Source: Desulfomonilaceae bacterium (lineage in GTDB: Bacteria > Desulfobacterota > Desulfomonilia > Desulfomonilales > Desulfomonilaceae). Taken from it: 34,718 nt of DNA. Both the position numbers and the translations under genes were made by a program. How positions within the stretch are numbered: position 1 is the stretch's first letter; each line of letters begins with the position of its first letter. A model generated the notes under the pieces. The model did no database searches and was not told where the DNA came from. It worked only from the letters and a program-made list of their open reading frames with translations. The stretch covers positions 49,381 to 84,098 of the forward strand of contig JAVHLK010000008.1 in the NCBI GenBank assembly GCA_031082285.1, given 5' to 3'. Shown here in pieces: positions 13,546 through 32,290 of this stretch.

Positions 13546-16500
13546 CTACATGCTCAACCATTTTCTCCAACCGGACCGACCTTTGAATCCCATGGTTTCG
13601 GGATTCGTCTTGTTGAACGACGGGTGGTACTTCACGTTCCAGTTTCCCATGAGGATGAAGGGAGCCCAATAGTACGGGTGACTGGTGCCGACGTTATTGA
13701 GCAGGGAAAGCTTGGCCTTGCGAAGGGCCTCGGCCTTGGATCCGTCGTTCAGATTACGGTACATTTCAATGAAAAGTTTCGCCGTGCTGTCGTCGTTCAC
13801 CTGCCACAGGCTCAGGACCACCGAGTCCGTGCCGGCGAAGAGAAACGCCCTGGACAGACCCATCAGCCCCATGGCTTCGCCGGTATAATTGCCGTCGGAA
13901 GCCAGGCAGGAAGACAGTACGACGAGGTCGGAATTGAGCTTCAATCCAAAAACTTCTCCCAGTTGCAGAAAACCGTCATTCTGCGAGTCTCCGTAAAGAG
14001 AAAAGACGATTGCAGGATGTCCGACGGACTTGCCTCCCGCGCTGAGAAGCACGCCGTGAGTGGCGAGATGCACATACCCGTATCGGCTCAAGTCGGCTTT
14101 CTTGAAGAGCGTTTCGGTTGCCTGGGCTCCGAAATAGACCTGTGACGGCCCGCCGACGATTTTGGCGATCTCGTTGATTTCTCTGCGAGCTGCCGGCAGG
14201 GGACTCAAGTTCCGGCCTCTGGCCCCGTTTTCAACCGTGTTGACTGCGTTGATGAGGCGGTCCGCACCGGGATTGAGTTCCATGGTCTTGTCTTCGGTTC
14301 GGTAGACCGCATCGCCGAAAGCCACGAGGTTCCATCCGGGCTTTTGATCCGTCTTTCTGGTCCGTACCTGAGACAACACCGAAATGGACGGCGCGTAGCA
14401 AAACGAGTAGCGCTCGAGGAGATAGGACGGACGGTCGGTCGCCGACCAGAAGCGCTTTTCCGCATGGGCCTTGGAATCGACCAGAACTTCGAAGGGCAAC
14501 GCGCACAGTGGGCCGTGCGGCACGATCACTACGGTCTTCTTGGTGGAGAGGAAGTGTTCGATCGGTTTGACGAGCTTGAGATAGAGTCGATGCGCGACCG
14601 AAGGATCCCAACTCGCCTGGGTGTCCGCATTGAAAAGCGGTCTGGTAAGCGTGTTCACGTCGCGTTCCAACTCTTGACGGGAACAGTCCACCGAATACGT
14701 GTAGAAACGATTCTTGTCGATTGCAAACACGTAGGTTCGACTCCGAGTGACCATGTAACCGATTATGGCTTCGTCACGGTTGATCACGTCCTTTTGAAGG
14801 TGGTGCACCGACACCGGTCGGGGGTACCTCAAGCCTGCATAGCCCGGATATTCTTTTTCCAGCCTATCCTTGAGCTTGACGAAACGCCCTTCCTTGTCGC
14901 GGCGTTCATCCAGGAGCTTCTTGATGACCTCCTGATTCGGCCGGACACTGGACCGCTCTTCAGCCAAACGAGCGTTGAGCTTGCGCAGACTGAGCTTCAG
15001 GCTCTTTTCTTTGACAAGGAGCTCGTTGGGGAGGTCGGAAAAACTCACCACATTGATCCTGGACAATGTGTTTTCGAAGTCCGCTTCCTTAATCTTCTCC
15101 ACGATCTTGAGAGCCTGGTTGTCGTAGGCTCCTTGGGGATCTCTTCTCGCCAGCTTCATCAGTACGCGAAGAGTTGTCTCGTAGAGAGCCGACTTACCGC
15201 CGAATATGAAATCGTCTTCGGCCGACTCTTCGACCGTGTCGGCTTCCGTTGCTTCGAGTATGGCGATGGCTTTGCGGTACGATTCCAGAGCCTCCCCGTT
15301 CCTCTTCCGGCTTTCAAGGGTGCGGCCCATAATGAAATAGGCTTTCCAGAGCATGCTGCGATCTTCCGAACATTGGGCGATTTCAAACGCTCGTTTCAAA
15401 TCGGTGATCGCGGCGTCAAAGTCCCCCAAGATGGAGGTGACCAGAGCTATTTGCAGGAGGTTCTCGTTGATGCCCCGGCCGTCGCCGAGCTTCAGGCGAA
15501 TGTCGCGGGCCTGCCGATAGTTTTCCAGAGCGGTCCGAGGTCGGCCCGACATCTGATACAGTATGCCGATTCGGGTCATGATGCGGGCCTCAGTCCGTTC
15601 GTCAGACCGTTCACGGGCCAGTACGAGAGCCTTCTGCTGATACTTCAAAGCCTCTTCCGGGGTTGCCAGTTTGCTCGAAATGTCCCCCAGGCGGATCAGC
15701 TGGTTCTGCTCCGCGGCCACATCGCGCGTTTCGCCGCTCATCCTGAGAGCATCTTCGAAATAGCTCTTTGCCTTTTCATACTCCTCCATGCGGTAATAGA
15801 TGTTGCCGATGCGGTCGTAGATCCTACCCAGAACCGCGTCGTTTCCCGGAACCTGGTACAGTGAGAGGGCCTTCTGATAATGTGCCAGGGCCTTTTCATA
15901 CTCGCGAAAGCCGTCATAGATTTCACCGAGGTACAAGTCCAGATCCCGTGAGTGCGATGCCGGCACTCCAAGCTCGACGCTGAGTCCCTGGGCTTTATGG
16001 AGGTTGGACAAGGCATTCTCGTAGTCCTCCATCTTGACCTGGATGATGCCGATTCCCCCCAGGGCCCAGAGTTCCCCTCGTCGATCTTCCAGCCGTTGCA
16101 TCGCGGTCAAGGTCTCACGGAGCATACTCAATGCCTTCTCAAAGTCTCCCGCATCCTCGAAGACGGACGCCATTTTCAGATTGATTGAAGCCGCCGCGCG
16201 AACGTCCTTCAGCCGGTGCGCCAGCTCACGGGCTTGCTTGAGCAACGACAGGGCCGAGCCCTGATTCATGCGGGCTCTTTGCACCATTGCCAATTCGGCG
16301 AGGATCGCGACTTCGCCTTTCGGGTTGTTGATGCGCTTGTTGATCTTGTGAGCCTCTTCGAGCGCGGCTGCGGCATTCTCCGGATCTCCCGCGGCAAGGT
16401 AGATCTTCCCTATGCCGGCAAGGTCGATGGCCGCTCCTCGAACGTCCCGGATGTCTCGGTGAATTGAGAGCGCTTGCTGGAACTTCTCCAGGGCCGCGGA

Positions 16501-18630
16501 TCGCAAACCGCGTGCCGCTTCGACATGCCCGAGGTTGGTCAGCGTGTCGGCCTCGCCCTTCTTGTCGGAAAGTTCCCGGTACGTCGTCAATGCCCGATCG
16601 AGATTCTTGAGCGCGGCCGAGAGATCGTTCCCATGTCTCTGAAGATTACCGATGTTGGCGAGGTTCGCGGCATACCCTCGATGATCGCCGATGACGCGAC
16701 GGAGGTCTCGTGCCTGAACAAAGTAGTCGTGCGCCCTGTCCGGTTTGCCTCTGTTCTTGTAGTGGACGCCGAGCGCGGTCAAGTCTCGACCCTCGCCGTA
16801 CCGGTCCCAAATTGCACGATGCTCCTTCAGTGCACGCTCGAAAAAAGAGAGAGCCTTGTCCCGGTCCCCCTGCAACTCATACACCAATCCGATAAGATGG
16901 TCACAATCGGCCGTTCCCCGCCTGTCGTTGATTTCCTGAAATTCTTTGCGTGCCGCCTGTGCAACCGGGAGCGCTTTCTCGAAATCCTCTCGTGACAACC
17001 GGTAACGGGCCAGCGCGACGCGAACATGGGCTCGCGTCCTTGTGTTCACGCCCGACTTAGAGCCTTCGACCGCCTCTTTGAGAAGAGCGAAGGCCGCTTC
17101 CATGTCGCCCAAGGTCTGGTGAATCTCCGCCAGAACGATGTTGGATTGAACCGTTTGATCCTTATCGTTTATCCTCTTCGAAATGCGTGCCGACTCTTGG
17201 GCGTATTCGAGAGCCTTGAGCGAAAAACCCTGACGAAAGTACACTCGAGAAATCAGAAGAAGAGCCCCTGCCTCACCGCCCGGTGAATGCAGGTCCCTGA
17301 ATTCGGCCAGGGTCTTGCCGCCGAGTTCCAGCGCGGACTTGAGTCGCGATCGGCCCATCTGAAGATCGGCAAGCGCGAGCCGCACCCGGGAGGCCATAAT
17401 TCGGTCGCCCTTTTTCTCGTAGAGATTCAATGCCTGGGTAAGATAGTAAACCGCCTGCACGATCTTCCCCTCGTGGTGCGCGGCCATCCCTTTTACTACG
17501 AGCGGCAATGCCTCGGTCTGCGTTTCGGGCCCCGTTCCCTGGCACGATTGTGCCTCTTGTACCAATTTGCGTGCCGTCTTGATGTCGCCGAGCGTCTGGT
17601 GAAGGTAGGCTATTCTGAATAGAGTCTCGCCGAGTTGCTTGTTGTCGCCCAAGTCTTGGAACGATTTCCGGGCATTGTTGAAGTGGACCATGGCCGAACG
17701 GTAGTCCGATCGTGAGACGAGAATCTCACCGATGTTGAGATTGAGCCCGGCGGCCTCCTTCTTGTCCCCCGCCTTGACGCGCATGGCAAGCGCGCGCTGA
17801 AATGCCTTGAGTGCTTCGTCGTATCGGTGAAGTCTCAGCAGACACGTGCCCATGTCCTCCAGCAGGCCGGGCATCGCTGATGTCTCCGATACGGGAAGGA
17901 TCGTCCGAGCTTCTTCAAGGGACACCGCGGCCTGAGAGAACTTCTCCTGGGACATGAAGATTCGACCGGCCAACAGATAGTCAAGGCTGCGGGCACGGGC
18001 ATTCTTCATAGATCTGTTCAGGTCGATGGAACGTTTGACATGTTCCAGCGCTTCGTCGGGTTTGCCCAACTTCAGTGCCGCCTGGGCCGCTCCGTGTGAT
18101 GCCGCGGCGGCAACCTTGTCCTTGTTCGACTGTGACGCCTTTTCGAGTGCGGCCGAAAAACTGCTGAGTGCGGACGCGTACTCACCCTTGTCAAGGAGGT
18201 CCTGAGCCCGGCTGAGAAGAACCGCGGGATCGACCGGCTCCGGGGACTTCCGAGCTTTCTCTTCTTCTTTCAGGGCCGACTTGTCGGATGCCTCCCGCGG
18301 CTTGGATCCGCGGGTGTCCTTGTCATCCCCGGGACGTGAGGGCTTTGCCTCCGAAGTCATCGCAGGTTGCGACCATTGTTGCGAGTCCTTCCGACCCGGC
18401 GGGGCCACGGGTCCGGGGCGTTCCGCCTCCGGAGGCTCCAGGCTCTCCGTCTTGGAAACGGACCCGCCGTTCATGATGGTCTCGATGTCGGTGCCGGCGA
18501 AAACCCGGACGGAGTCTTCCTCGACAAGGGGAGCGGCTGAATGACAGTCCGCCTGCCAGGCAATCAAACAGGTGACGGCAACACAGACCGTCACGAAGGC
18601 ATGCGATTTGTGTGTGGACGATCGTCTCAT
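13546..18630 (-). CDS. Exported TPR-repeat protein with C-terminal CHAT (caspase-like) peptidase domain
   Basis: 1694 residues. Residues 1-33 look like a signal peptide (a cysteine at about 29 is not in a proper lipobox). Residues about 45-130 are a low-complexity charged/Pro linker. From about 135 to 1165 there is an almost unbroken array of tetratricopeptide repeats, many of the GDxxxAxxxYxxAL type, usually protein-binding. After a helical linker (about 1195-1290) comes a CHAT domain with both catalytic residues: H1525 in HLATHG and C1575 in LSSCLA, followed by GLSRAFLFAGT and SLWQVND. CHAT proteins are caspase/separase-like proteases. GAAGGAACA precedes the ATG, 18 bases after lgt. Target unknown; periplasmic location is inferred from the signal. 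Confidence 0.9.
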   Translation of the reverse strand: MRRSSTHKSHAFVTVCVAVTCLIAWQADCHSAAPLVEEDSVRVFAGTDIETIMNGGSVSKTESLEPPEAERPGPVAPPGRKDSQQWSQPAMTSEAKPSRPGDDKDTRGSKPREASDKSALKEEEKARKSPEPVDPAVLLSRAQDLLDKGEYASALSSFSAALEKASQSNKDKVAAAASHGAAQAALKLGKPDEALEHVKRSIDLNRSMKNARARSLDYLLAGRIFMSQEKFSQAAVSLEEARTILPVSETSAMPGLLEDMGTCLLRLHRYDEALKAFQRALAMRVKAGDKKEAAGLNLNIGEILVSRSDYRSAMVHFNNARKSFQDLGDNKQLGETLFRIAYLHQTLGDIKTARKLVQEAQSCQGTGPETQTEALPLVVKGMAAHHEGKIVQAVYYLTQALNLYEKKGDRIMASRVRLALADLQMGRSRLKSALELGGKTLAEFRDLHSPGGEAGALLLISRVYFRQGFSLKALEYAQESARISKRINDKDQTVQSNIVLAEIHQTLGDMEAAFALLKEAVEGSKSGVNTRTRAHVRVALARYRLSREDFEKALPVAQAARKEFQEINDRRGTADCDHLIGLVYELQGDRDKALSFFERALKEHRAIWDRYGEGRDLTALGVHYKNRGKPDRAHDYFVQARDLRRVIGDHRGYAANLANIGNLQRHGNDLSAALKNLDRALTTYRELSDKKGEADTLTNLGHVEAARGLRSAALEKFQQALSIHRDIRDVRGAAIDLAGIGKIYLAAGDPENAAAALEEAHKINKRINNPKGEVAILAELAMVQRARMNQGSALSLLKQARELAHRLKDVRAAASINLKMASVFEDAGDFEKALSMLRETLTAMQRLEDRRGELWALGGIGIIQVKMEDYENALSNLHKAQGLSVELGVPASHSRDLDLYLGEIYDGFREYEKALAHYQKALSLYQVPGNDAVLGRIYDRIGNIYYRMEEYEKAKSYFEDALRMSGETRDVAAEQNQLIRLGDISSKLATPEEALKYQQKALVLARERSDERTEARIMTRIGILYQMSGRPRTALENYRQARDIRLKLGDGRGINENLLQIALVTSILGDFDAAITDLKRAFEIAQCSEDRSMLWKAYFIMGRTLESRKRNGEALESYRKAIAILEATEADTVEESAEDDFIFGGKSALYETTLRVLMKLARRDPQGAYDNQALKIVEKIKEADFENTLSRINVVSFSDLPNELLVKEKSLKLSLRKLNARLAEERSSVRPNQEVIKKLLDERRDKEGRFVKLKDRLEKEYPGYAGLRYPRPVSVHHLQKDVINRDEAIIGYMVTRSRTYVFAIDKNRFYTYSVDCSRQELERDVNTLTRPLFNADTQASWDPSVAHRLYLKLVKPIEHFLSTKKTVVIVPHGPLCALPFEVLVDSKAHAEKRFWSATDRPSYLLERYSFCYAPSISVLSQVRTRKTDQKPGWNLVAFGDAVYRTEDKTMELNPGADRLINAVNTVENGARGRNLSPLPAARREINEIAKIVGGPSQVYFGAQATETLFKKADLSRYGYVHLATHGVLLSAGGKSVGHPAIVFSLYGDSQNDGFLQLGEVFGLKLNSDLVVLSSCLASDGNYTGEAMGLMGLSRAFLFAGTDSVVLSLWQVNDDSTAKLFIEMYRNLNDGSKAEALRKAKLSLLNNVGTSHPYYWAPFILMGNWNVKYHPSFNKTNPETMGFKGRSGWRKWLSM

Positions 18631-20521: not shown

Positions 20522-20629
20522 GCAATATCAAATAACAAGGAGCAATGCACAAGGTGGCGCATTATGGTTGGAAGGAATAATTCCGATGGTTCGCCGTCCC
20601 GGTGACGGATCAGTGCGCCCACGGCATCC

Positions 20630-20791
20630 TCACACGGAGGATATGGCGACCCCGATGAGTGACCCGACAGCCACGGCCACGACGGGATTGCACCACAAGA
20701 CTCAGCCTGAAGCCGCACCCGAACTCAGCAGATAGAGGGAAAAACCGACGATCGCGCCGACGGCGCCGCCGATCACATGTTTGTATTTCAC
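20630..20791 (-). CDS. Putative small selenoprotein, DUF6132-like membrane protein (in-frame TGA = Sec30)
   Basis: 53 residues if TGA at 20704-20702 is read as selenocysteine. GTG start at 20791 with GGAGG 7 bases upstream. The protein has one glycine-rich membrane segment (VIGGAVGAIVGF, 6-17), then ASG-Sec-VLWCNP, then a second segment (VVAVAVGSLIGVAI, 37-50). From memory, DUF6132 proteins read GAIxGY, then SGxCPITSxP, then GAxxGG; without gaps the family cysteine falls on the TGA, NP on the family S/N-P, and the glycines match on both sides. C34 gives a Sec-x3-Cys pair. It has its own promoter (20844-20871). A possible SECIS stem lies 15 bases past the TGA. Without read-through only a 29-residue peptide would be made. 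Confidence 0.7.
20663..20686 (-). promoter_or_regulatory. Possible SECIS hairpin in the small selenoprotein gene
   Basis: Starting 15 bases after the TGA, CCCGTC pairs with GTCGGG with one T-T mismatch (20686-20681 with 20668-20663). Inside, GC pairs with GC around a CGTG loop that has G in its second position, as bacterial SECIS loops often do. The stem is less tidy than the two SECIS hairpins in the Hdr operon. Confidence 0.4.
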
Positions 20792-20843
20792 AGCCGGCCT
20801 CCGTTTCTCGTAATTGCCGCTTTCCATGAACGCGGTTGTGTAT

Positions 20844-20937: not shown

Positions 20938-21945
20938 ATGGCTGAAAAATGGAGCAGAGAGAAACTCTTGGAAGTCAGCGGCGCGTTCATGCTCAGCAGG
21001 ATATTGATAACCGCGGCCGAACTGGATCTCTTCAGCAAGTTGGAAACCGGGCCGCGTACCGCGGAAAACCTGAGTGAAAAGGAAGGATGGGATCTCCGAG
21101 GGTTGAGGATTCTCATGGACGCCCTTGCCGCAACTGGTTTTCTGGCTCGATCCTCCGGCGGCGAGTACGGCCTTCCCCATGAACTCGCCGATATGCTCGC
21201 TGCGGATCGGGAAGAATCGGTACTGCCCATGATCCTCCACCGAGGACGAATGTGGGAAAGCTGGTCCCATCTGACCGAGATAGTCCGCACCGGTAAGAAT
21301 CCCAATCCCATGGGCGCGGATTCTCGGTCCAAGGAAGAGATGGAGAGCTTTATCGGAGCCATGCACGTAGTCGGCAAAATGATGGCCGACACCATCGCGA
21401 AATCAGTGGATCTGACGCGCTACACGCGACTGCTCGATGTGGGGGGAGGTCCCGGGACGTATACCATGGCATTCCTCAATAGGGCACCGCAGATGTCGGC
21501 TACGCTGTTCGATCTACCCGATGTGGCGGAAATGGCTCGACGACGACTGGAACGTAACGGCTTCCTGCATCGGGTGGACCTTGCGGAGGGAGATTTCCGG
21601 ACCGACGACTTGCCGACGGGGTACGATCTCGTTCTCTTAAGCGCGATCGTTCATATGAACAGTCGAGAAGGCAACCGAGCGTTGTTCCGAAAAGCCTATC
21701 AAGCCCTTGAGCCTGGTGGAACCATATTGGTTCGCGACCATTTTCTCGACGAGAGTCGTACTCATCCTCGCGACGGAGCCGTCTTTGCCGTCAACATGCT
21801 GACCGCGACACGGGCGGGGAATTCATACATGTATACTGAGATTAGGGAGGATCTGGAGGCCTGCGGATTCGTTGACGTCAGGTTGATTCGCGAAGGGACG
21901 AAGATGGATCAGCTCGTCTCTGCGGTCAAAGAACAGGCGGGTTGA
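20938..21945 (+). CDS. SAM-dependent O-methyltransferase (Methyltransf_2 type)
   Basis: 335 residues with the two-domain layout of class II O-methyltransferases. An N-terminal winged-helix dimerisation domain (about 10-100, with ILITAAELDLFSKL and LRILMDALAATGFL) precedes a Rossmann SAM-binding domain with LLDVGGGPGTYTM (165-177), FDLPDV (191-196) and the late segment LEPGGTILVRDHFLD. Relatives act on small aromatic or isoprenoid hydroxyls (for example AcsF/BchU-type or carotenoid enzymes); no substrate can be assigned. It is divergent from the small selenoprotein gene. AAAGG lies about 9 bases before the ATG. Confidence 0.85.
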   Translation: MAEKWSREKLLEVSGAFMLSRILITAAELDLFSKLETGPRTAENLSEKEGWDLRGLRILMDALAATGFLARSSGGEYGLPHELADMLAADREESVLPMILHRGRMWESWSHLTEIVRTGKNPNPMGADSRSKEEMESFIGAMHVVGKMMADTIAKSVDLTRYTRLLDVGGGPGTYTMAFLNRAPQMSATLFDLPDVAEMARRRLERNGFLHRVDLAEGDFRTDDLPTGYDLVLLSAIVHMNSREGNRALFRKAYQALEPGGTILVRDHFLDESRTHPRDGAVFAVNMLTATRAGNSYMYTEIREDLEACGFVDVRLIREGTKMDQLVSAVKEQAG

Positions 21946-31861: not shown

Positions 31862-32290
31862 ATGACACAAGAATTTCACCCCAAGATCATAGCCTTCGCG
31901 TGCAACTGGTGTTCGTACGCCGGTGCGGACCTCGCGGGGGTAGGGCGCATGCAGTACCCTCCCAGCATTCGCTTGATCCGGCTCATGTGTTCGGGAATGC
32001 TCGTTCCTTCGTACATTCTGAAGGCTTTTGAAAAGGGTGCCGACGGCGTCCTTGTGACCGGTTGACACATCGGAGAATGCCATTACCTGGAAGGTAATGA
32101 AAAGGCCGTAAAGGTGCTGGACAAGACCCGCAAGCTCATGAAACTGCTCGGCATTGAAGACGCTCGCCTGAGAAAGGAATGGATTTCCGCATCAGAGGGA
32201 GTGCGGTTTGCCGAAGTGGTTCGCGAGTTCACAGAGGACGTTCGCACACTGGGACCGAATCCTTTGCGCAAGACGGAGAACGCGGCATGA
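31862..32290 (+). CDS. mvhD: MvhD/VhuD-like hydrogenase iron-sulfur subunit, selenoprotein (Sec68)
   Basis: Carries a [2Fe-2S] cluster and links HdrA to a hydrogenase or dehydrogenase. 142 residues if the TGA at 32063-32065 is read as selenocysteine. Before it: [18 protein letters not shown] and RLIRLMCSG, the family N-terminus. After it: [11 protein letters not shown], the conserved block that in Cys forms reads GCHPGDCHY, so the TGA falls exactly on that cysteine. The frame stays open to 32290. GGAG lies 7 bases before the ATG. It overlaps the next gene by the ATGA at 32287-32290. VhuD of Methanococcus is a known Sec form. A standard gene caller would truncate this at residue 67. Confidence 0.92.
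32081..32099 (+). promoter_or_regulatory. SECIS hairpin in mvhD
   Basis: Perfect 7-bp stem CATTACC (32081-32087) / GGTAATG (32093-32099) with loop TGGAA (G at the second base), starting 15 bases after the TGA, the distance expected for a bacterial SECIS. Confidence 0.75.

Follow-up and report, generated by a model that had tools for sequence, protein, structure and literature searches.

Does the short frame at positions 20,630 to 20,791 of the window (the whole 34,718-nucleotide stretch of Desulfomonilaceae bacterium DNA analysed here), broken by an in-frame TGA, encode a selenoprotein, and how would its UGA then be decoded? The frame lies on the minus strand, as do all of the features of this gene given below, and runs from 20791 to 20633, with a terminal TGA at 20632–20630; this strand reads VKYKHVIGGAVGAIVGFSLYLLSSGAASG-TGA-VLWCNPVVAVAVGSLIGVAISSV-TGA from 20791 to 20630. 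The 53-codon gene is made up of a GTG start and 28 codons, a TGA at codon 30 (20702–20704), a further 23 codons and then a second TGA at codon 54. A GGAGG ribosome-binding site (20798–20802) is located 6 nt 5′ of the GTG. Further upstream, the promoter scan identified a σ70-like promoter (TTGACA-N16-TATGAT, 11/12 match; 20871–20844); two promoter-like sites were found, compared with 0.3 expected. The earlier note was correct on the coordinates, the GTG, the GGAGG, both TGA codons and the near-consensus promoter; the strand, which it left unstated, is the minus strand, and the plus-strand reading of 20630–20791 is not this gene.

When the 53-residue frame was compared with 60 relatives, genomes other than its own gave ten strong matches (nine from the same family), with 44–65% identity and each with one in-frame TGA at the same place; a nine-residue match in Hungatella from a contig scan was taken as chance. 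Of 395 genomes of the phylum, 27 were matched in a profile search and 38 with a broader profile; the latter gave 40 matches, each of which contains exactly one TGA and none of which has a cysteine at the Sec position. Altogether, 48 distinct homologous genes were read, and these form the basis of the TGA, cysteine and RNA counts. The TGA at the Sec position is invariant (48/48), with no Cys, TAA or TAG codon among these genes, and the terminal stop varies between TGA, TAA and TAG. The homologues with TGA that the earlier note forecast were thus recovered, but those that it expected with cysteine at this position were not. Pooled over the window's family, pN/pS is 0.43 upstream of the TGA, 0.38 between the TGA and the final stop and 1.04 beyond that stop. 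The corresponding values are 0.46, 0.37 and 1.04 for the other genes of Group I (30 genes whose alignment, from the Sec UGA to the sixth base past the stop, is free of gaps). Since every genome carrying the frame has the TGA in the same column, together with this pN/pS pattern, the agreement is more than chance.

Homology and purifying selection across an in-frame UGA, as seen here, are what is asked of a bacterial selenoprotein, as is Sec machinery in the genome, which contains selA (598.2 bits; cut-off 267.9), selB (393.9 bits; cut-off 242.25) and tRNA-Sec (71.4 bits, above the curated cut-off). The window also contains an mvhD-type gene (hydrogenase delta subunit, motif GUHIGEC; plus strand, in-frame TGA at 32063–32065), a known kind of selenoprotein, located downstream of hdrA-like and hdrB-like genes. 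The claim that the host reads UGA as Sec agrees with this machinery and with the Sec-type mvhD gene, which is one of the ‘two further Sec genes’ mentioned in the earlier note; the second was not identified. One might still read the locus as two short ORFs, or as ordinary termination at the first TGA with no selenoprotein, given that either half is shorter than 30 codons. Yet in-frame selection persists past the TGA and ends at the next stop, neither TAA nor TAG ever replaces the TGA, the second half needs no start codon of its own and the Sec machinery is present. Two independent ORFs are ruled out by the selection across the TGA, and we regard this whole reading as extremely improbable. Nor was any of the three outcomes obtained that the earlier note held to be fatal to a selenoprotein: the 48 genes conserve the sequence after the TGA, in no relative does the frame end at codon 30, and the genome has selA, selB and tRNA-Sec. 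Judging from the sequences, the window gene is almost certainly a real selenoprotein gene, with Sec predicted at codon 30.

The earlier note described two glycine-rich membrane segments on either side of the TGA, and AlphaFold2 indeed predicts two helices, at residues 3–26 and 36–52, with Sec30 at the turn (a model of moderate confidence, with a mean pLDDT of 76.3 and a pTM of 0.48). The 53-residue protein would thus be a two-helix membrane hairpin with Sec30 in its turn beside one partner cysteine. Glycines 12, 16, 43 and 47, Sec30 and Pro36 are invariant in the broad alignment. A second redox residue is found near Sec throughout, as all 48 proteins have exactly one partner cysteine in the turn, although not always on the same side. 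It is at +4 (U-x3-C) in Group I, which agrees with the Sec-x3-Cys pair announced for the window protein, and also in family f15 and in L160; it is at −5/−6 (C-x4/5-U) in Group II, which is of the DUF6132 type, and in L157. One protein inside Group I, L018, has a serine at +4 and a cysteine at −5 instead. This swap of the cysteine between +4 and −5/−6 suggests a functional Sec–Cys pair.

We may then ask to which family this protein belongs. It matches no Pfam or NCBIfam model and thus falls outside formal membership of DUF6132 (PF19628; gathering cut-off 23.2 bits), whereas three of its distant Sec homologues score 47.5 (L066), 44.0 (L069) and 30.1 bits (L068) against the same model; a fourth, L049, remains below the cut-off (14.5 bits). 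The earlier label ‘DUF6132-like’ thus stands through the Sec homologues and not through a Pfam match of the window protein itself, and the scores support a protein that is related to DUF6132 through intermediates without being a formal member. The likeness lies in the size, the two glycine-rich helices and the spacing of the Sec turn, and the difference in the partner cysteine, which is at +4 in the window protein rather than at −5. The DUF6132 proteins of Bacteroidota presumably carry a cysteine where Sec stands in the window protein. Across 118 genomes of the phylum, DUF6132 matched nothing but a pair of TGA-containing copies in each of two genomes. These Sec-containing paralogues are L066 and L073 (genome G150) and L069 and L072 (genome G121), and a CGGC-domain protein adjoins one paralogue of each pair.

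Table 1 of a 2026 review (PMC13188914), which catalogues 119 families and subfamilies of prokaryotic selenoproteins, contains no matching family: none of its entries is DUF6132 or a tiny glycine-rich membrane family with two helices. The window protein shares with many of the catalogued thiol-redox selenoproteins an in-frame UGA, a Sec/Cys pair and redox neighbours. No NCBIfam model matches the selenoprotein family, and no mention of DUF6132 was found in the relevant literature searched. A plasmid search with a DUF6132-type homologue gave no match, Foldseek against the PDB gave nothing significant, and Rfam recognized only two tRNAs in the window. Within the libraries searched, the family is very probably absent from present catalogues.

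How the UGA is recoded is a less ordinary matter. The published spacing of bacterial SECIS elements is 16–37 nt after the UGA (PMC13188914), and a strict canonical scan of the window gene (hairpin 16–37 nt after the UGA, with a G among the first two bases of the loop and an energy of −7.5 or below) found none; a looser scan gave a weak GUCG loop at +34 (−5.9 kcal/mol). When any distance was allowed, an N(0–1)G[G/U]N apical loop on a stem of at least four pairs was found in a far hairpin at +66. The gap-free alignment of Group I contains two conserved structures: a stem from about +12 to +54 and a hairpin enclosing the terminal stop codon. For their 23 pairs, 79.6% of cells are paired, compared with 30–49% after sliding of the partner, and covariation scores 0.269, compared with at most 0.145. 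In the window, the first structure is a spacer stem between the Sec codon and the far hairpin (20649–20688; AUCCCG at +14 to +19 pairs with CGGGGU at +48 to +53), and the second is the far hairpin UAUCCUC-CGUGU-GAGGAUG (20625–20643), a probable SECIS with its loop starting from +66 and the terminal TGA (20630–20632) within it. The earlier note had suggested looking for the SECIS at 20650–20710; this stretch does contain the conserved spacer stem, but the best SECIS-like loop is further on, in the far hairpin.

The far hairpin is constrained in ways that go beyond the protein. Column 68 is mostly U with a UAA stop and C with a UGA stop (19 UA, 10 CG and 1 UG). Twenty of the Group I genes belong to families other than that of the window (f1), and all 20 have TTA as the leucine codon in the far stem, whereas elsewhere in these genes leucine is encoded by several codons; the loop codon is unconstrained at its third base, and 19 of the 20 conserve a noncoding GGC 3′ of the stop. 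Of 20 carrier genomes, 15 contain the 15-mer GCCTTAGGNTAAGGC, and only at the selenoprotein gene apart from one decayed gene copy. This decayed second copy (L116; G249:C52:165-179) still keeps its stop-codon hairpin.

A G[G/U] loop at the far position (+65 to +68) is present in all 32 genes of Group I and f15, and at the near position (+19 to +22) in none of them; of the remaining 16 genes, 14 have the near loop and two the far loop, with shuffled controls at about 4–14%. All of Group I forms a single clade, in a tree of weak resolution, so these counts are not independent events. The DUF6132-type homologues have a textbook near SECIS (for example CCCU-GGUC-AGGG, with the GGUC loop at +20). 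Both f15 genes have their far hairpin (CUGGUC..GACCGG in L067 and GUGGUC..GACCAC in L159) at +66 inside the coding region, since the stop is at codon 34 and codon 31 after Sec, respectively, 7–10 codons further on than in Group I. The far hairpin therefore keeps its distance from the UGA rather than from the stop. The spacer stem goes with the far hairpin, and in Group II it is not above chance. Group I is on one side of one branch and f15 falls with the near-type genes in the weakly resolved tree, so that the independent switches are few, although their number is uncertain. The mvhD-type gene of the same window carries a near SECIS of ordinary type (loop GGA at +24), which indicates that the host SelB handles the usual kind too.

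These observations make it fairly likely that the far hairpin of the window's group is a relocated SECIS to which SelB would bind. It resembles the bacterial SECIS of the Escherichia coli fdhF type (the bSECISearch consensus) in its small apical loop starting with G[G/U] and its short stem, and differs in that its loop is at +66/67, past the spacer stem, and that in most genes the terminal stop is enclosed in it. It could instead be argued that an ordinary, degenerate SECIS resides in the stem just after the UGA and that the stop-codon hairpin serves mRNA stability or termination. This reading is favoured by the conservation of the stem at +11 to +55, by several genes of family f9 whose apical loop (CGCU or CGAU at +31) satisfies loose SECIS rules, and by the weak GUCG loop of the window gene at +34. 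However, the apical loops of the spacer stem vary from gene to gene, a G[G/U] loop does not recur consistently at any one near position in Group I, and it is the far loop that is invariably G[G/U]. A role at the stop is in turn at odds with f15, where the hairpin is at an equal distance from the UGA within the coding region, and a terminator was rejected on this ground and for want of a T-run after the hairpin in Group I. We consider this alternative unlikely and favour the relocated SECIS, with fair confidence that a bacterial SECIS can act about 66 nt downstream, around the gene's own stop, brought near by a stem, and that it has shifted between +20 and this far place within the family.

As for function, the neighbours vary with the lineage. 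Nine loci of the window's family have the selenoprotein gene divergent from a Methyltransf_2 gene, and a SpoU methylase and lgt are found downstream in most loci. In the window itself the divergent partner is the Methyltransf_2-family gene at 20938–21945 (plus strand); a 1694-residue TPR-CHAT protein is encoded at 13546–18630 (minus strand), and most loci of the window's family have a homologue of it downstream of the selenoprotein gene. This family has no adjoining thioredoxin gene. In family f21 a thioredoxin gene is directly upstream in all five loci, with a zinc-ribbon protein downstream in four, and in f15 a thioredoxin-reductase-type oxidoreductase gene is downstream in both loci. A rubrerythrin gene adjoins in L078 and L084, a CGGC protein is upstream in L098 and L099, and a molybdopterin oxidoreductase is downstream in L091. 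The thioredoxin, thioredoxin-reductase-type and rubrerythrin neighbours favour a redox role at the membrane, and we give about even chances to a selenol/thiol relay with thioredoxin as its most likely partner. Its main rival is metal binding, in which Sec and Cys in the membrane turn would hold a soft metal or metalloid and the protein would be a small transporter subunit or a metallochaperone. The placing of the Sec/Cys pair at a membrane turn would suit such a site, as would the CGGC and zinc-ribbon proteins that adjoin in some lineages, but there is no conserved metal-resistance gene nearby and the recurring neighbours are the redox genes, which leaves metal binding rather improbable.

The redox relay is retained in the mechanism that we propose. 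SelB and tRNA-Sec would decode UGA30, and the hairpin to which SelB binds in the window's subgroup would most likely be that about 66 nt past the UGA, its G[G/U] loop forming around the terminal stop, and the conserved spacer stem would fold the intervening coding RNA and so bring this hairpin near the ribosome. Once made, the Sec–Cys pair would probably alternate between the selenol/thiol and selenenylsulfide states and so serve as a membrane redox relay, which thioredoxin may feed as electron donor. Taken as a whole, a new DUF6132-related selenoprotein family with a far SECIS and a Sec–Cys membrane redox relay is the best explanation of the data, and a likely one.

The family thus appears to be an uncatalogued one of very small membrane selenoproteins, present in about 10% of the sampled genomes of the phylum and invisible to ordinary gene callers. 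As no Cys form was found in these genomes, prediction tools that require Cys relatives would miss it as well. Near and far SECIS elements in homologous genes form a natural pair, with which the distance rule for bacterial SECIS elements becomes directly testable, and which suggests that searches confined to 16–37 nt overlook selenoproteins.
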